Below, piece by piece: positions 3,416-35,704 of a stretch of DNA of 36,942 bases. Under the pieces are notes generated by a model. The model had not been told where the DNA came from. It was given only the letters and a program-made list of their open reading frames with translations, and did not search any database. The translations under genes and the position numbers were made by a program. The stretch is from IMG/VR virus record IMGVR_UViG_3300032073_000088, positions 1 through 36,942 of that record; one strand, given 5' to 3'. Source of the DNA: a virus. Positions within the stretch are counted from its first letter, which is position 1. Each line of letters opens with the position of its first letter.

Positions 3416-4095
3416 GCGAAAAAATGTTCTGCACCATTAATGTTAATTGTATTATCAGTATCACATTCAGGACACTTATAATTAACCTCATGTGACATCA
3501 TTGGCATACTGTCAAAATATTCTAACATCTCATTGTATGCCGCTACCGGTAAACTATCTATAAATTGTTCAATTTCTTCTGGTGTTTCATCTTCTACAGT
3601 AATAGTTTCTTCTCCTACTGTTACAGATGCTAGACATGCTTTAATATAATCAAACATATCGCCTGAACCATTTACAGTATCATTGACAGTAGGGTATTTT
3701 AATTGTAATACAATACCTCCATCTAAATCTAATCTACCTGTTTTCATTTCTCCCACAATATCCAAATCTTCTAACTTTAATTCATAAGGAATTTTGTGTT
3801 CACAGTTTCCACAAATTAAAGTGAATTGCTGTGTTCCTGTTACAGACTTTTCTTTACAACGTATGAACAAATGTTGTAAATCAAACATTGTAATTTTGCC
3901 TGCGTCCACTTTTCCAAATGAACAATTTTGTACTACTGTTTTACAAGCTTGTACCATATCTTCGAATTGTCCGCCCTCATTTGCTAACATAAGAACTTTC
4001 TCTTCCTTTACCAACCATGGTCTAAAAGTAAAGCGCTTTCCTGTCGACGGTACCTTTAATTCAAATGTTGGCGTATCAATTTTTGGTAATGCCAT
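3412..4095 (-). CDS. gp26: Baseplate hub subunit gp26
   Basis: This 227-residue protein fits the T4 gp26 family (T4 baseplate protein, PF12322 type). It has an N-terminal P-S-T-G-K-x-F-x-F-R-P-W-L-V-K-E-E-K segment and a central D-L-Q-H-L-F-I-R-C motif. Two C-x-x-C pairs (C95/C98 and C208/C211) could form a zinc-ribbon-like site. Gp26 is part of the central hub around the needle. The start is supported by AGGAG (4106-4102) at good spacing. The gene lies between gp54 and gp51 in a minus-strand operon; 26-51 adjacency is conserved with T4. Confidence 0.85.
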   Translation of the reverse strand: MALPKIDTPTFELKVPSTGKRFTFRPWLVKEEKVLMLANEGGQFEDMVQACKTVVQNCSFGKVDAGKITMFDLQHLFIRCKEKSVTGTQQFTLICGNCEHKIPYELKLEDLDIVGEMKTGRLDLDGGIVLQLKYPTVNDTVNGSGDMFDYIKACLASVTVGEETITVEDETPEEIEQFIDSLPVAAYNEMLEYFDSMPMMSHEVNYKCPECDTDNTININGAEHFFA

Positions 4096-4117: not shown

Positions 4118-4918
4118 CTATGTGCCACCTGATCCATTTTGTAATTTTGGATCTTGATTCTTTTCTTTATTTTGTTTTTCCTCTTCCGAACCTCTAAACA
4201 GATTTAATACCCAATCTCTTACAGCTGTTCTTGTGGAGTTTTCTTCTGCTCCGCCTGTAGGATTAAAGTTATCGGGTTTACCAATGCCTACTGTAATAGC
4301 AGTAGACTCCCAATATGCTGCTGAGACAATAAGTGTTGCTCTAGCTATGCCAGAGTTACCCATTGACAACGGTATAAGGTTAAGGACTTTGGGTGTAACT
4401 TCATGTAATACCCATGCTTTTCTGTAACGATCTTTCATGTCTAAAGATGCAATTGTAACTCTACCCCAAGTATCTGCTGGGTATGCAACTTGTTTGGATG
4501 TAGGATCTACACAATGTGCCATCCATCTTTCAAACTGTTCTCTTAATCTCCAATCAACATCACAATAAAAAGTTAAATTGATTTCGTTACCTAAGAACCC
4601 TATATTATTGTTTCTGTAATGTGTCCAGGGTCCTAAATTAAATTCTTTGTTTGTTAATACCATACCAGGTATTTGGACTTCTTCACAATATATGGAAAAG
4701 TCACTTACTAATTCTCTATCGCTTTTTCCTTCGCCTGACATTGAGGGAGGAAACGATACCTGTACCTCAAATCTTTCTGAACGTGCTAATTGCCTACGTC
4801 TGATTTCAGACATAAACGAAGTAGCGTCCCAACGCTGATTACCTAACTGGGTAACTGGTCCTTCTATTTCTTCATCGCCTACTTTTACTGAAGGTCTTTT
4901 TAAATCAAACCATCCCAT
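4118..4918 (-). CDS. gp54: Baseplate tail-tube initiator gp54 (gp19-fold)
   Basis: This 266-residue protein has the tail-tube fold signature shared by T4 gp19 and gp54. The signature includes R-F-E-V-Q-V-S-F-P near residue 48, C-E-E-V-Q-I-P-G-M-V-L-T, then N-L-T-F-Y-C-D-V-D and F-E-R-W. The baseplate setting, the extra acidic/Gln-rich tail (about 225-266) and the lack of adjacent sheath or tube genes favour the initiator gp54 over the repeating tube protein gp19. Gp54 caps the hub and starts tube polymerisation together with gp48. A G-rich ribosome site (GGGGAG) precedes the ATG, which overlaps the upstream stop as TAATG. Confidence 0.72.
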   Translation of the reverse strand: MGWFDLKRPSVKVGDEEIEGPVTQLGNQRWDATSFMSEIRRRQLARSERFEVQVSFPPSMSGEGKSDRELVSDFSIYCEEVQIPGMVLTNKEFNLGPWTHYRNNNIGFLGNEINLTFYCDVDWRLREQFERWMAHCVDPTSKQVAYPADTWGRVTIASLDMKDRYRKAWVLHEVTPKVLNLIPLSMGNSGIARATLIVSAAYWESTAITVGIGKPDNFNPTGGAEENSTRTAVRDWVLNLFRGSEEEKQNKEKNQDPKLQNGSGGT

Positions 4919-5535
4919 TATAAACTCCCCATACCTACACTAGGTTTTTTCTTTCTTTGTTCTTCTAACATTGTTTTTCTATAAACAGTTCTATCTGTTG
5001 CTCCGGTAAATTGTTGAGTTGGTAAAAATACTGCTGAACGCCAATGTATTGGATTTACCTTATAAAATCTACTTGTAACCTGACCAAAAATATATTTTTT
5101 AACAGCATTTTTAATCTGCGGAAATTGTGAGTATCGTTTTACAATTTGCCAGCTAGCGTTTAATTGTGCTTTTTCATCAGTAAGTTTTTCCGTTGTTTCT
5201 CTTAATGCCCCTAAAACTTCTGCTCTAAATAAGGGCGGTAAATAATGTAAGTTTATACCACTAAATCCTCCTATATTAGGAAGTGGCTCTATAATTATTG
5301 ATAAAGGAAATTTATCATAATAAGGTAAAGTTTCTGCGTGTTTAGCATCGTATGTAAACATCATCATATTACCTGAATCAATACTTGTTTCAAATGAACC
5401 TAAGTCAGAACTAAAAACTGATTGAGGACTATTTACTCCATCAGCAAATTGCCTAACTGCGTTGATATACCAGCGATCTGAACGTTCTACATCGCCGGCT
5501 TCAAGTCTAATCTGTCTGAACTCGTTGGTTGCCAT
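4918..5535 (-). CDS. Conserved T4-like virion structural protein
   Basis: A 205-residue protein with a motif common in marine T4-like phages: F-T-Y-D-A-K ... L-P-Y-Y-D-K-F-P-L, then G-x-N-L-H-Y-L-P-P, then a W-R-S-A-V-F-L-P strand near residue 165 and a basic C-terminus. I know it as an uncharacterised virion protein. Its place next to gp4 suggests a head-tail joining or DNA-end role like T4 gp2 or gp3, but no residue proves this. The ATG sits exactly where a transcript from the TATAAATA at 5548-5541 would begin, and no Shine-Dalgarno sequence is present, so a leaderless late mRNA is predicted. Confidence 0.6.
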   Translation of the reverse strand: MATNEFRQIRLEAGDVERSDRWYINAVRQFADGVNSPQSVFSSDLGSFETSIDSGNMMMFTYDAKHAETLPYYDKFPLSIIIEPLPNIGGFSGINLHYLPPLFRAEVLGALRETTEKLTDEKAQLNASWQIVKRYSQFPQIKNAVKKYIFGQVTSRFYKVNPIHWRSAVFLPTQQFTGATDRTVYRKTMLEEQRKKKPSVGMGSL

Positions 5536-5540
5536 GTAAG

Positions 5541-5548
5541 TATTTATA
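5541..5548 (-). promoter_or_regulatory. T4-type late promoter, leaderless arrangement
   Basis: TATAAATA on the minus strand, followed by 5 bases (CTTAC) and then the ATG at 5535. In T4 the element covers about -13 to -6, which puts +1 on the A of the start codon. Confidence 0.65.
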
Positions 5549-5550
5549 AG

Positions 5551-5997
5551 TTAAATGCCAAGTTCTTTTTCAGTTACAAGCATAAAAGTTAAATTCTTTT
5601 CTTTACAAAATATCTCTGCTGACTTCCATTTTGCCTCATTTACAGCATAATTAGCAACTTCCTGTAAATACCTTTTTGTTTTTCTTCTTTTTTCTGGGGG
5701 CTTTGTAAAGCGTTTGGGTTTAACTTCTATTAGATATGCTTTCTTATGACCGGTTTTATCAGTTACTTCTACATAAAAGTCTACGAAATATTTGTGTATT
5801 CTGTTATCCATAGGGTTACGATAAGGTATCGCTATTTCCTCTGATACCCATCCTGTTACGGATTCATTCTTATCACACCAATTCATAAACTTTAGTTCGT
5901 AACTTGAACGATAAGTTATATTCGTGACATTACCTAAATATTTAGAATAATTTTTAGGTATGAACTTTCCTTTATATATTTCTTTAGCGTAGACCAT
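5551..5997 (-). CDS. gp4: Head completion nuclease gp4
   Basis: This 148-residue protein is a clear match to T4 gp4 (150 residues). It has K-F-I-P-K-N-x-S-K-Y near the start, I-T-Y-R-S-S-Y-E-x-K-F around residues 27-37, and a TnsA-like nuclease core with E34, D73 and E91-V-K93 (the I-E-V-K-P-K strand). A basic segment follows, and the protein ends in L-T-F-M-L-V-T-E. Gp4 acts late in head maturation, before tail attachment, and has a PD-(D/E)XK nuclease fold. It is the first gene of the minus-strand late operon and lies just downstream of the late promoter at 6028-6021. No Shine-Dalgarno sequence is seen in the short leader. Confidence 0.88.
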   Translation of the reverse strand: MVYAKEIYKGKFIPKNYSKYLGNVTNITYRSSYELKFMNWCDKNESVTGWVSEEIAIPYRNPMDNRIHKYFVDFYVEVTDKTGHKKAYLIEVKPKRFTKPPEKRRKTKRYLQEVANYAVNEAKWKSAEIFCKEKNLTFMLVTEKELGI

Positions 5998-6004
5998 ATA
6001 AATA
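5997..6004 (+). promoter_or_regulatory. T4-type late promoter driving gp48 operon
   Basis: A perfect TATAAATA, with predicted +1 near 6010. The leader to the ATG at 6034 is about 24 bases and includes AGAGG at 6016-6020. The element overlaps the start codon of gp4 on the other strand. Confidence 0.7.
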
Positions 6005-6020
6005 AAGTATTAACTAGAGG

Positions 6021-6028
6021 TATTTATA
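6021..6028 (-). promoter_or_regulatory. T4-type late promoter driving gp4 operon
   Basis: TATAAATA on the minus strand (TATTTATA on plus), with predicted +1 near 6015, about 18 bases upstream of the gp4 ATG. It lies face-to-face with the plus-strand element at 5997-6004. Confidence 0.7.
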
Positions 6029-6033
6029 GTACA

Positions 6034-7353
6034 ATGACTAAGAACATTAGAGACGGCGGTCAAGGTTCAGGAGGCCCAACTGATGGTTGGAAACGAACTA
6101 ATGACGCACAATCGGGCAGAGAATTAGGAGGACCCGGCGGTGAAAATGTCGCATACCCATCAGGAACAGGACGAGGAGCAGATTTAGGAGCGCTTGCAAG
6201 TGTTTATCCTCAAGACTTATTCCAAGGTAATCAAATTAATGCAGTAGGTTTCTATATAATATCTAAAAAGAAGTTAGGTTCAGGCGAATCAAATAGAGGT
6301 GTAGCACTATCAGGTGCAGGATCAACCAAAGCAGGTGTAAATGCCAAAGCAGCAGCAGATAATTATTTGGCAGATTATTTTAAAGGCGATAAAGAAAGCG
6401 CAAGTGAAGGTAACAGAGCAGATGCAGACACATTCGGATCTGTTGCAACGGGTGCTTTTGGAGCGGCAGCATTATCAGTAGTTGCTTCAGGTTCTCAAAT
6501 AGGAGACGCATTTTCTACTACACAAAAAGCAATAGGTACAGGTATTGGTGTAGCTGCGGGTGTTGCAATGATTAATCCTTCAACAAGTAAACTATTCAGA
6601 AGTAATGTTGGAGAATTTACATCTCAAGGAATATACTTATATGTTCCGCAATCAATTATAACTGCTTACCAGGCCAACTATGATGAAACAGAATTGGGTA
6701 TGGCAGGTATGCTAACAGGCGGTTTAGATTTTAACATGGCAGAATTAGGAGAAGCATTAGGATCAGCAGGTAGAGGACTAATAGGTTCAGCTGCCAACTT
6801 ACCTAGAGCTTTAGGAGTAAATGCAGACTTTGCATCAGCATTACAAGCAACAAGTAAATTAGCGGACAACCCATATAAAGAACAATTATTTAGAAGTATG
6901 GGATTTAGGAAGTTTAGTTTTCAATATATTTTCTCTCCTAAAAATGCTGATGAAATGACACAAGTAGAACAAATTATTAAAATATTTAAATTTCATATGC
7001 ACCCGGACGCGTCTCCCGAAAGTGTATTTTTACAATATCCATCAGAATTTGTAATTGAGTTTTTAAGAACAGAACCTGGAAAACCACCCCCGCCCGCTGA
7101 AGACGCTAATGATAATACTGAAGAAGATGGAGATAAAGAACCACCTACACCGCCAGCAAATGAGGTAGTTAGAAATCCTAACTTGCCTAGAATAGCAAAC
7201 TGTGCTTTAACTAATGTAAAAGTTACATACGGACCAGATGGTTTCTTTACAACATTTAAAGGCTCAGGTGGTAAAGCAACAGAAATAACAATGGAACTTC
7301 AATTTACAGAACTCGAAGTTCTTACAGGCGAACATATTAAGGCAGGATTCTAA
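6034..7353 (+). CDS. gp48: Baseplate tail-tube cap gp48
   Basis: A 439-residue protein; T4 gp48 has 364. It ends with the strand pattern typical of the gp48/tube-cap family: A-L-T-N-V-K-V-T-Y-G-P-D-G ... E-I-T-M-E-L-Q-F-T-E-L-E-V-L-T ... G-F, matching the T4 gp48 ending. The middle holds F-R-S-M-G-F-R-K-F-S-F-Q-Y, another tube-fold strand. The N-terminal 60 residues are Gly-rich, an Ala/Gly-rich stretch covers about 110-190, and a Pro/Glu/Asp-rich linker lies near 350-375. Gp48 binds the hub and nucleates the tail tube with gp54. The stop overlaps the gp53 start (TAATG). Confidence 0.75.
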   Translation: MTKNIRDGGQGSGGPTDGWKRTNDAQSGRELGGPGGENVAYPSGTGRGADLGALASVYPQDLFQGNQINAVGFYIISKKKLGSGESNRGVALSGAGSTKAGVNAKAAADNYLADYFKGDKESASEGNRADADTFGSVATGAFGAAALSVVASGSQIGDAFSTTQKAIGTGIGVAAGVAMINPSTSKLFRSNVGEFTSQGIYLYVPQSIITAYQANYDETELGMAGMLTGGLDFNMAELGEALGSAGRGLIGSAANLPRALGVNADFASALQATSKLADNPYKEQLFRSMGFRKFSFQYIFSPKNADEMTQVEQIIKIFKFHMHPDASPESVFLQYPSEFVIEFLRTEPGKPPPPAEDANDNTEEDGDKEPPTPPANEVVRNPNLPRIANCALTNVKVTYGPDGFFTTFKGSGGKATEITMELQFTELEVLTGEHIKAGF

Positions 7354-12773: not shown

Positions 12774-12781
12774 TATAAATA
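12774..12781 (+). promoter_or_regulatory. T4-type late promoter, leaderless arrangement (gp25)
   Basis: TATAAATA is followed by CTAAT and then the gp25 ATG at 12787, so +1 is predicted on the start codon. It lies in one of the few intergenic gaps of the plus-strand structural region, and no Shine-Dalgarno sequence is present. Confidence 0.68.
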
Positions 12782-12786
12782 CTAAT

Positions 12787-13182
12787 ATGGCAAAAGGCGA
12801 AATTTCAAGAGTATATAAGGATATAGACATGGCCTTCACGGCTAACGCTGTATCCTCTGATATAAACAAAAAATTAGACGTCAATGCAGTTAAACAATCG
12901 TTAAAAAATTTACTTTTAACAAAAAAGTATGATAGGAAATTTAACCCAACAATAGAATCACCTGTTTATAGAATGTTATTTGAAAACAGCATGGTTGTAA
13001 GACCAATGGTAGAAAGACAAATTGAGGAACTTATAGAGGCATACGAACCAAGAGCTTTTGTTGAAAGGGTAAAACTTACTGAGGATGTAGATCAGTTATA
13101 TTGGAAAATAGATATCTCATATAGAGTAATCGGAGTTAATGAACCTACACAATTAGCAGTAATATTAGACAGGATAAGGTAA
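12787..13182 (+). CDS. gp25: Baseplate wedge subunit gp25
   Basis: A 131-residue protein of the gp25/GPW family (T4 gp25: 132 residues; relatives in P2 and in type VI secretion as TssE). It shows the Y-D-R-x-F-x-P segment near residues 57-62, E-S-P-V-Y-R-M-L-F-E, and the diagnostic E-P-R at about 92-94, followed by V-x-R-V. Gp25 nucleates sheath polymerisation at the baseplate. Gene order 25-6 matches T4-like phages. Its start codon sits at the predicted +1 of its own late promoter. Confidence 0.93.
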   Translation: MAKGEISRVYKDIDMAFTANAVSSDINKKLDVNAVKQSLKNLLLTKKYDRKFNPTIESPVYRMLFENSMVVRPMVERQIEELIEAYEPRAFVERVKLTEDVDQLYWKIDISYRVIGVNEPTQLAVILDRIR

Positions 13183-18230: not shown

Positions 18231-19835
18231 ATGGCACTCGTACTTCGTAAATTAGGCAGAGTAGAATTAGCTCGTAGTTATTTAAGAGATATAAAAAATA
18301 ACTTTGACTATTTCCATTTTGCCGTAGGAAAGACAACAGCGTGGGGAGACGATACGAATCCCGACACGCCTATTGATTCGGATAACTACATATCGCAATT
18401 TAGAAGATCAATGATGTTTATACAACGCGTTGACTCAGCAGATATTTGTATGTTAGCTAAAAGAATTAATTGGACAACCAATACAGTTTACGATAGCTAC
18501 GATGATGCCTACTCAACTACAAACACAGCTTATTCAGGAGCCGCAACGTTAGCAGACGCTAACTTCTTTGTAATTACTTCTGAATTTAAAGTGTATAAAT
18601 GTATTTCTAATAATAATAACGCACTAAGTACGGTAGAGCCCTCAAGTACAGGGACTGGCGTATTTGAACTTTCAGATGGTTACAATTGGAAGTTCTTATT
18701 TCAAATATCGGCGTCCGATCAAAACAAATTTCTGGACGCCGATTTTATTCCTGTTAGAAAACTTACAACTGCTTATTATGGAGACGTTAACGGAGAAGTT
18801 GACGGTGTTACTATTACAGCAGGTGGTTCGGGTTACACATCAGCACCACAAGTAAATATTGCAGGTGATGGAGATATAACAAATAAAGCTACAGCAACCG
18901 CTACTGTAAGTGGCGGTGCGGTAACAGCAGTAACAATTACAAATGCAGGAGCAGGATATAGTTTTGCTCATGTAGACTTTGTAGGTGGTGGAGGTTCCGG
19001 TGCAACAGGAACAGTTAATTTAGGAGATACAGATCCTAATCCAACATTACAAAGTGCTGTAGAAGGTGCGTCTATATCAGGAACATTAGACAGAGTAGTA
19101 GTTACAAACGCTGGACAAGACTACGCACAAGGAGATGTAATCATTTCCGTAGAAGGAGATGGTACAGGAGCAGAAGCAAGTGCGTATGTAAACTCAGCAA
19201 CAGGAGCTATTACAGAAATAAGAGTTACAAATCCTGGATCAGGTTACTCTTACGCTAATTTAAATATTACAAATACATCGGCTCCAGGTATAAATGCAGC
19301 AGCGAGAGCAATTATAAGTCCACAGGGTGGACATGGGTCAAACCCAACTAGAGAATTATTTGCTAGTAATTTAGGTATTACAGTAAGTTTCTCTGACAAC
19401 GACAATAAAGATTTAATATTAGGAAATGACTTTAGGCAATTATCATTAATTAAGAATGTAAAAGTTACTCCTTCTACAACAGACAATTATTCGGGTGTTA
19501 CAGCAACAACTTGTCATATTATAAATGTGGCATCGGGGCAAACATCCAATTACGCAGCAGACGATATTATTACAACAAACGACGGCGGTAAGTTTCAAGT
19601 AATACAAATAGATGCAACGAACAATAACATTTATTTAACAGCAGAAATACCGCTAATAAGTAATTCATCTACATTGGAAAATACTAGTCAAAGTATATCC
19701 AATTTGAGTATAAATAGTGTAACAAATCCGGAAATAGATAACTCTACCGGAGAAATAGTTTATTTAGACAACAGGGCTCCAATAATTAGATCGGAGGATC
19801 AGGTGGAACAAGTAAAAGCAATAATTAGGTTTTAA
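18231..19835 (+). CDS. gp8: Baseplate wedge subunit gp8 with inserted beta modules
   Basis: This 534-residue protein has the gp8 signature at both ends. Near residue 23 is F-D-Y-F-H-F-A-V-G-K-T-T-A-W, matching T4 'T-I-F-I-T-F-G-R-S-E-P-W'. A G-Y-N-W-K-F-L-F-Q-I strand lies at about 149-158. The end, I-V-Y-L-D-N-R-A-P-I-I-R ... D-Q-V-E-Q-V-K, matches T4 'M-I-Y-M-E-N-R-P-P-I-I-M ... D-Q-T-E-E-I'. T4 gp8 has 334 residues; the extra 200 correspond to about residues 185-345, a block of G-x-G-Y beta modules that T4 lacks. Gp8 sits as a dimer in the baseplate wedge. Confidence 0.88.
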   Translation: MALVLRKLGRVELARSYLRDIKNNFDYFHFAVGKTTAWGDDTNPDTPIDSDNYISQFRRSMMFIQRVDSADICMLAKRINWTTNTVYDSYDDAYSTTNTAYSGAATLADANFFVITSEFKVYKCISNNNNALSTVEPSSTGTGVFELSDGYNWKFLFQISASDQNKFLDADFIPVRKLTTAYYGDVNGEVDGVTITAGGSGYTSAPQVNIAGDGDITNKATATATVSGGAVTAVTITNAGAGYSFAHVDFVGGGGSGATGTVNLGDTDPNPTLQSAVEGASISGTLDRVVVTNAGQDYAQGDVIISVEGDGTGAEASAYVNSATGAITEIRVTNPGSGYSYANLNITNTSAPGINAAARAIISPQGGHGSNPTRELFASNLGITVSFSDNDNKDLILGNDFRQLSLIKNVKVTPSTTDNYSGVTATTCHIINVASGQTSNYAADDIITTNDGGKFQVIQIDATNNNIYLTAEIPLISNSSTLENTSQSISNLSINSVTNPEIDNSTGEIVYLDNRAPIIRSEDQVEQVKAIIRF

Positions 19836-28008: not shown

Positions 28009-28016
28009 TATAAATA
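28009..28016 (+). promoter_or_regulatory. T4-type late promoter for the 28048 gene
   Basis: TATAAATA begins right after the TAA of the fibre gene. Predicted +1 is near 28022, leaving a leader of about 26 bases with GGAG before the ATG at 28048. Confidence 0.65.
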
Positions 28017-28047: not shown

Positions 28048-28566
28048 ATGGCAAAGGCGAAAAAGAAGATTGATCTATCCGATATAGAAATCACTCCCGC
28101 ACCCAAAGAAGAAGAAGAAAAAAGATATGAATTTGTAGACCCTTATTGGTCTAACAAAAAAGCTGAACATATCATAGCAGTAGTAGAATACCCTAACGGT
28201 AAAAGAGCAACTGCATCTATACAAAACTCTGACGGAAACAATCCAGATTATAAAAGAATCATTGAGGAGTTTGGCATCGAACAAATAGATGCTAACACCG
28301 AAGCAGGTTTAAAAAGACGTGAAGATAATATTAAGAAACGTCTAGCGAGAAAAGAAACTGAGGAGATTAGGCGCAAACAAGAAATGCTATTTAATACAAA
28401 GTTAGAGGCATTTGAAATATCCGCTGTTAAGGAATCTAAAAATACAGACTTAAAAAGACTTATCCGTAAGGCCAAAACTCCTTTAGAAGTTGGTGCATTA
28501 ACATCAATACTAATACAAGAAGATTTAATTCAACGAGGAGTAATAAGTGGAAAAGAAGATACCTGA
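28048..28566 (+). CDS. Conserved hypothetical protein (charged, helical)
   Basis: A 172-residue protein that I do not recognise. It starts with a Lys-rich segment and an acidic P-A-P-K-E-E-E-E stretch. A short beta part follows (H-I-I-A-V-V-E-Y-P-N-G-K-R, about 47-59), then a long K/R/E helix (about 95-125) and an ending with L-E-V-G-A-L-T-S-I-L-I-Q-E-D. It has its own late promoter, so it is probably a late protein, perhaps a fibre assembly factor or minor virion component. The 3' end overlaps the GTG start of the next gene by 20 bases, and that gene's ribosome site is embedded here. Confidence 0.5.
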   Translation: MAKAKKKIDLSDIEITPAPKEEEEKRYEFVDPYWSNKKAEHIIAVVEYPNGKRATASIQNSDGNNPDYKRIIEEFGIEQIDANTEAGLKRREDNIKKRLARKETEEIRRKQEMLFNTKLEAFEISAVKESKNTDLKRLIRKAKTPLEVGALTSILIQEDLIQRGVISGKEDT

Positions 28567-32752: not shown

Positions 32753-32765
32753 TGAACGATAAAAA

Positions 32766-32773
32766 TATTTATA
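32766..32773 (-). promoter_or_regulatory. T4-type late promoter for the YRG gene
   Basis: TATAAATA on the minus strand in the gap behind the small membrane protein gene. Predicted +1 near 32760 gives a leader of about 85 bases to ATG 32675. Confidence 0.6.
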
Positions 32774-34667: not shown

Positions 34668-35486
34668 TTATTCCCCTGTCCAATGTTTGAGTAACTTAGG
34701 ATCAACTAATTTGTCTTGTTTAGTTTTACCTCTTGTCGCGTCCTCAAACGGTAATAAGTCTATATTGAATACACAGAGTATACAATTAGGCCTATAAATT
34801 TCTGTTGTTAAATCATCATCGTCCCAACTACGCCCTCGGTTATACGAGTAAGCATAATCTGCTGGGAAATGATCCCATAATTTTTTACCAAAGTCACCCC
34901 ATCTCCAGGAGTGATAGTTATCTGTTCCGTCTGTATATGTAAACCATATTTTCTCTTTATGTTCTAGTACATCTTCCCATATACATTCTGCTTGATCATC
35001 GGACCATACTTGGCAACTGCCATTAGTATATGCTCCGTGTGCTAATTTAAATCTTCTTGATTTCATAGGACGTGGGTCCTGCCACCAACTTCTTAACTTA
35101 GTTGGCCTTTCCATATTGTATGTAAGTAAAGGTTCAATATCGTTCTGTATGATTACGTCCAAATCAAAGAAGATGAAGCGTCCTGTCGGCTTATCTGCTG
35201 CAAAATTGTGAGTATTAAAGACCATTGTTTTAGGCCTGTCCCAGCATCTAGCCATGCCATATTTAAAGTCATCAGAGCCGAACCAATACTTAGGATGTAT
35301 GGTATCGATATCTGGAAATGGTATAACATTAATGTTTTTATCCAGTCCCTCGGCATCATCTGTATAACAGTAAAAATGGAAGTCGTGTTTAGGATTAGTA
35401 TGCCTTCTAGACATAGCGTAAAGACGATTGACAAAGTGCGGACCATACCTATTCCCCCATTTACTACAAACTACGTTTACTCTCAT
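34668..35486 (-). CDS. Glycosyltransferase-like protein, paralogue of the 33641-34315 gene
   Basis: This 272-residue protein begins V-N-V-V-C-S-K-W-G-N-R-Y-G-P-H-F-V-N-R-L-Y, the typical start of this marine glycosyltransferase-like family. Next come F-H-F-Y-C-Y-T-D-D, I-F-F-D108-L-D110-V-I-I-Q (the metal-binding D-x-D), and F-P-A-D-Y-A-Y-S-Y-N-R-G. The ATG is preceded by GAGGAAGG and overlaps the previous stop as ATGA. Compared with the 33641 copy it has extra loops near 60-100. Two diverged copies in one operon could act on successive sugars; this is inference. Confidence 0.66.
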   Translation of the reverse strand: MRVNVVCSKWGNRYGPHFVNRLYAMSRRHTNPKHDFHFYCYTDDAEGLDKNINVIPFPDIDTIHPKYWFGSDDFKYGMARCWDRPKTMVFNTHNFAADKPTGRFIFFDLDVIIQNDIEPLLTYNMERPTKLRSWWQDPRPMKSRRFKLAHGAYTNGSCQVWSDDQAECIWEDVLEHKEKIWFTYTDGTDNYHSWRWGDFGKKLWDHFPADYAYSYNRGRSWDDDDLTTEIYRPNCILCVFNIDLLPFEDATRGKTKQDKLVDPKLLKHWTGE

Positions 35487-35704
35487 CCAGCCTTCCTCGC
35501 AATGACATAGTCTGTTCCGTATTGTTTACCTGCGTCTGCAAGTTGCTCGGTGAGGCGTATACATTTATAATCAAAATCTGTTAGATCAGATCTAACTATA
35601 AGTGTTGCAAATTTATTACTATTTTTCATCCAAGTAACATATTCATCTTCGTCATTAAATTCACCTTCAATTATCATTACATTTTCCATTTTTAAAGTTA
35701 GCAT
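35483..35704 (-). CDS. Hypothetical protein
   Basis: A 73-residue soluble protein of unknown family. It contains G-E-F-N-D-E-D-E-Y-V-T-W-M-K, an A-T-L-I-V-R-S-D-L strand, and ends with Y-G-T-D-Y-V-I-A-R-K. The ATG at 35704 has AGGA at 6 bases and overlaps the stop of the radical-SAM-like gene; the stop overlaps the next start as ATGA. Tight coupling at both ends suggests a small partner of the flanking genes. Confidence 0.5.
   Translation of the reverse strand: MLTLKMENVMIIEGEFNDEDEYVTWMKNSNKFATLIVRSDLTDFDYKCIRLTEQLADAGKQYGTDYVIARKAG

Follow-up and report, generated by a model that had tools for sequence, protein, structure and literature searches.

The stretch of DNA analysed here (the window) is a virus record of 36,942 bases, a fragment from the tail module of a marine T4-like phage that carries genes for gp2, gp4, gp48, gp53, gp5, gp25, gp6 and a gp8-like protein, together with related genes. 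At two places, 5548-5533 on the minus strand and 12774-12789 on the plus strand, the T4 late promoter sequence TATAAATA is followed by exactly five bases and then by ATG, as a sequence-only reading of the window had claimed. On the minus strand, an exact match to the 8 bp T4-type box (5541-5548), which is also present in the 12 closest gp2 loci, is separated by the spacer CTTAC (5536-5540) from the start codon (5535-5533) of a gene for a gp2-like DNA end protector of 205 amino acids (4918-5535; PHROG 429, E = 2.8e-46). On the plus strand, an equally exact box (12774-12781) and the spacer CTAAT (12782-12786) precede the start codon (12787-12789) of a gene for a gp25-like baseplate wedge subunit of 131 amino acids (12787-13182; PHROG 261, E = 8.1e-29). 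Both spacers end in a pyrimidine at position -1, the putative transcription starts are 5535 and 12787, and both mRNAs are predicted to be leaderless. According to their PHROGs assignment, both are late (virion) genes; they sit within late gene runs, and read-through from upstream is also possible. No Shine-Dalgarno sequence was found upstream of either gene, in line with the earlier reading; in the window as a whole, such a sequence precedes 20 of the 30 open reading frames of at least 100 amino acids and 12% of internal ATGs.

Two of the six late boxes near the start of an open reading frame in the window are fused in this manner, and the others leave a leader. As the earlier reading had indicated, this applies to the plus-strand boxes at 5997-6004, 29 bases from the ATG at 6034 of the tail tube cap gene gp48, and at 28009-28016, 31 bases from the ATG at 28048, and also to the minus-strand box at 32766-32773, which is an intermediate case since only 12 bases separate it from the ATG at 32753 and its leader would measure only about 7 nt. 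This short leader may itself be conserved, because the homologue of the gene in contig G001 (89794, minus strand) likewise lies 12 bases from its box. A fourth leader-bearing box had been overlooked, on the minus strand at 6021-6028, 23 bases from the ATG at 5997 of the head closure gene gp4. Together with the box at 5997-6004 it forms a divergent pair (5997-6028) with 16 bases between the two boxes in the gp4/gp48 gap, a layout also found in relatives; the plus-strand box at 5997 overlaps the gp4 start codon.

In an AT-rich sequence such boxes could come to lie near an ATG by chance and, indeed, TATAAATA by itself shows no enrichment there (10 observed versus 6.3 expected). The fused arrangement TATAAATA-N5-ATG, on the other hand, occurs twice against 0.09 expected, and none of 100 dinucleotide shuffles reached two occurrences. 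Searching phage records with the DNA itself yielded no match, and relatives were therefore gathered by protein searches. Among gp25 relatives in IMG/VR with upstream sequence, the box is present in all 43, at a spacing of five bases in 41 and of six in two; for gp2, the spacing is five bases in all 12 of the closest loci and also in HTVC008M, Mosig and Melnitz. The earlier reading had named loss of the spacing in close relatives as a refutation, and this comparison did not refute it: box and spacing are kept down to 25-26% protein identity and are invariant in the fused genes, while the sequence preceding the box differs among them. The five-base spacing was not seen in distant gp2 homologues and clades, nor in gp25 of T4, Syn9, P-SSM4 and Melnitz, and for this reason the fused-promoter class, as judged by comparison, is a lineage trait and not a universal one. 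Box and ATG lie eight bases apart in Mosig gp25 and in some portal genes, and a few sites show six to eight.

The distance from box to ATG was also counted in marine T4-like loci after de-duplication at 60% over the first 50 residues. Its distribution is bimodal, with 60 genes at exactly five bases, two at 0-4, 16 at 6-12 and 243 at 13-45, so that the fused share among late boxes near a gene start is 60/321. The proteins at five bases belong to 24 families that share no BLAST similarity with one another and converge on the same spacing, including gp2, gp25, a tail-tube-like gene after gp23, portal, a 2OG-Fe(II) oxygenase, GIY-YIG and HNH homing endonucleases, a radical-SAM protein and csgF. 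Since these loci had been collected via gp25 and gp2, a second count used 80 loci retrieved through the HTVC008M major capsid protein (gp23); the same spike appears in this sample, which was not chosen on either gene, with 27 boxes at five bases and none at 0-4 or six. Eight pelagiphage-type genomes or contigs gave 26 at five bases and none at four, six or seven. The similar motif TTAAATAT is never found at five bases, and TATAAT, the sigma-70 -10 element, shows no comparable spike (12 at six bases versus a scattered background), which is why early genes are left out of the claim. A single-base spike over 24 families, together with retention of the fused pattern in relatives that share 25% protein identity, rules out chance placement of the boxes, a reading to which we assign a negligible probability. 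The comparative spacing supports the leaderless class that the earlier reading had predicted, although the term 'designed' used there is better replaced by 'selected'.

Homing endonuclease genes with a fused late promoter were found in locus L227 at 2406-2912 and 3421-4014, identified as GIY-YIG and HNH/NUMOD3 by profile search, and in L207, L257 and G006:13748, assigned by the look of the sequence. Newly arrived genes therefore seem to acquire a fused late promoter.

The T4 late promoter box spans positions -13 to -6 (PMC1524935), in agreement with the extent assumed in the earlier reading, and with a spacer of five bases the transcription start would consequently fall on the A of ATG. The base preceding the start codon is a pyrimidine in 59 of the 60 genes of this class, whereas for gene starts in general the share in these phages is about 27-54%; a pyrimidine followed by a purine is what one would expect where transcription begins. 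Promoters with leaders have no start codon to skew the composition at this point, yet the sixth position downstream of the box holds an A in 149 of the 243, a stronger preference for A than at any other of the 12 positions compared, which places +1 there independently of T4. The start codons at five bases are ATG in 53 cases, GTG in two and TTG in two. Because many spacers have a further purine at -2 or -3, a real promoter whose RNA begins one to three bases upstream of ATG, with a minimal leader, is conceivable, and the distance of eight bases at Mosig gp25 and some portal genes fits such an arrangement; given that the nearly invariant pyrimidine at -1 and the A bias of the leader class both point to the A of ATG, we regard it as unlikely.

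The fused genes also differ from the leader class in what surrounds the start codon. A Shine-Dalgarno sequence precedes only three of 60 genes at five bases, versus 155 of 241 in the leader class, and terminator-like hairpins lie within 70 bases upstream of 19/60 (32%) fused genes, a share that drops to 18/243 (7%) for leader-bearing genes and to 2.6% for random positions. Such hairpins are notable after gp23 (18 of 24), and in Mosig a hairpin of -20 kcal/mol stands immediately before the box of gp2. In HTVC008M, gp2 and gp4 are arranged head to head with 26 bp between their ATGs, which leaves gp2 without a co-directional upstream gene to feed it. These observations bear on the proposal that the AT-rich block acts on longer mRNAs as a signal for translation to start and not as a promoter of leaderless RNA. 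Kozak-like contexts replacing the Shine-Dalgarno sequence are known in Bacteroidetes, for example in Flavobacterium (PMC6847099), and the scarcity of Shine-Dalgarno sequences at the five-base spacing would agree with such a signal. Nevertheless, the block is the exact late promoter that elsewhere in the same genomes has leaders, it often follows a terminator, it serves an HTVC008M gene with no co-directional neighbour upstream, and these phages otherwise use Shine-Dalgarno sequences, which precede 55-69% of starts in HTVC008M, Mosig, Melnitz and the window, much as in T4. A translation-start signal is therefore a very unlikely explanation.

An ordinary leader would result if the true start codon lay downstream and had its own Shine-Dalgarno sequence. 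In the window, AAGGATATAGACATG ends at the Met15 codon of gp25, and AAGGA stands seven bases before Met15; this Shine-Dalgarno-like stretch (12815-12829) is accounted for by the conserved YKDID codons. The residues before Met15 are conserved as protein (RxYKDID in relatives), Met15 is replaced by Leu in many relatives, the N-terminal length measured from the ATG at five bases varies by whole codons only, and gp2 has no such internal site, all of which make a downstream start exceedingly improbable.

Fused promoters are present in the pelagiphages HTVC008M and Mosig and in the OM43 phage Melnitz, with gp2 among the genes concerned in the latter two, and all five exact fused patterns of HTVC008M lie at annotated starts, with predicted RNA 5' ends at 18916 (minus strand) and at 6280, 7562, 31132 and 49760 (plus strand). 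Melnitz gp25, by contrast with its fused gp2, has a leader that includes a Shine-Dalgarno sequence. Contig G001 (170 kb) contains seven predicted leaderless genes. None was found at a gene start in T4, KVP40, Syn9, S-PM2, P-SSM2, P-HM1, P-HM2, S-SM2, ACG-2014f or P-RSM4, nor in phages of Stenotrophomonas, Sinorhizobium and Ochrobactrum. The pattern is rare in cyanophages; P-SSM4 has two, one of which is PTOX. Matches in T4 (131165) and P-RSM4 (167822) were rejected as they are not annotated gene starts. A match in Melnitz (MZ577097, 129242) was also set aside, as its ATG at +1 is out of frame and a start led by a Shine-Dalgarno sequence follows 17 bases further; the region 129242-129275 looks like a converted fused promoter.

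Taken together, the evidence makes it very probable that these phages possess a conserved class of leaderless late mRNAs, in which a late promoter is fused to the start codon and translation begins at a 5'-terminal AUG. T4 late promoters depend on gp55, gp33 and gp45 (PMC2988020, PMC1524935). By analogy, a gp55-type late sigma factor, with gp33 and the gp45 clamp, would recognize TATAAATA at -13 to -6, and RNA polymerase would begin transcription at the A of ATG, with the pyrimidine(-1)/A(+1) step as initiator. A late sigma factor is annotated in HTVC008M at 80410-80967, and the window, only a 37-kb fragment, would come from a phage that presumably uses such a factor. The resulting mRNA would start with 5'-AUG, without leader or Shine-Dalgarno sequence, and its terminal AUG would be recognized for translation. 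RNA read in from upstream would offer the start codon no Shine-Dalgarno sequence, and many members of the class lie behind a terminator, so expression of the fused genes would depend chiefly on the firing of their own late promoter.

A stronger version of this idea is a stage lock: since RNA arriving from upstream carries no ribosome-binding site for the start, the protein could come solely from leaderless RNA initiated late, and the phage would redirect host ribosomes to mRNAs of that type; we consider it a rather unlikely extension. The T4 homing endonuclease I-TevI is controlled at the late stage by a late promoter combined with a sequestered ribosome-binding site, and is similar in that the endonuclease is translatable only from late RNA; I-TevI hides its site, while the fused marine genes simply have none on upstream RNA. 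The ribosomal protein bS21 is encoded by HTVC008M (91228-91431; L275), Mosig (10132-9983; L276) and Melnitz (35461-35619; L277); a search of ten other named T4-like phages did not find it in any of them. As a requirement for fused promoters it was rejected, since G001, with its seven fused genes, has none.

The fused promoters share with T4 late promoters an identical 8 bp box, an association with late virion genes and no need for a -35 element, but in T4 itself no late gene has its box fewer than 13 bases from the start of the open reading frame, and leaders are the rule. Leaderless mRNAs reportedly occur in alphaproteobacteria, as in the transcription start site map of Sinorhizobium meliloti, and resemble the predicted phage mRNAs in that the 5' end is the start codon and no Shine-Dalgarno sequence is present; those, however, come from host genes under host sigma factors. 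Among phages, the closest likeness in stage-specific mRNAs lacking leaders is offered by the Thermus phage phiYS40, in which most middle and late transcripts are leaderless and the expression of host IF2 and IF3 shifts (review PMC3594737). In the marine T4-like phages a majority of this kind was not found; the putative leaderless mRNAs would represent a minority of late genes (two of the six boxes in the window and the 60/321 of the relatives) and would be set by a gp55-type promoter. A literature search that covered non-subscription papers returned no report of leaderless mRNAs at T4-type late promoters.

The fused late promoter thus looks like a real but undescribed route to late proteins in T4-type phages. 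If this is correct, widespread marine T4-like phages, including those of SAR11 and OM43, would make some of their virion proteins from leaderless mRNA, which falls outside the T4 paradigm. The natural coexistence of leaderless genes and leader-bearing neighbours under the same promoter type would make the cost and use of leaderless translation directly testable, and the fixed spacing would provide annotators with a precise start-codon rule.
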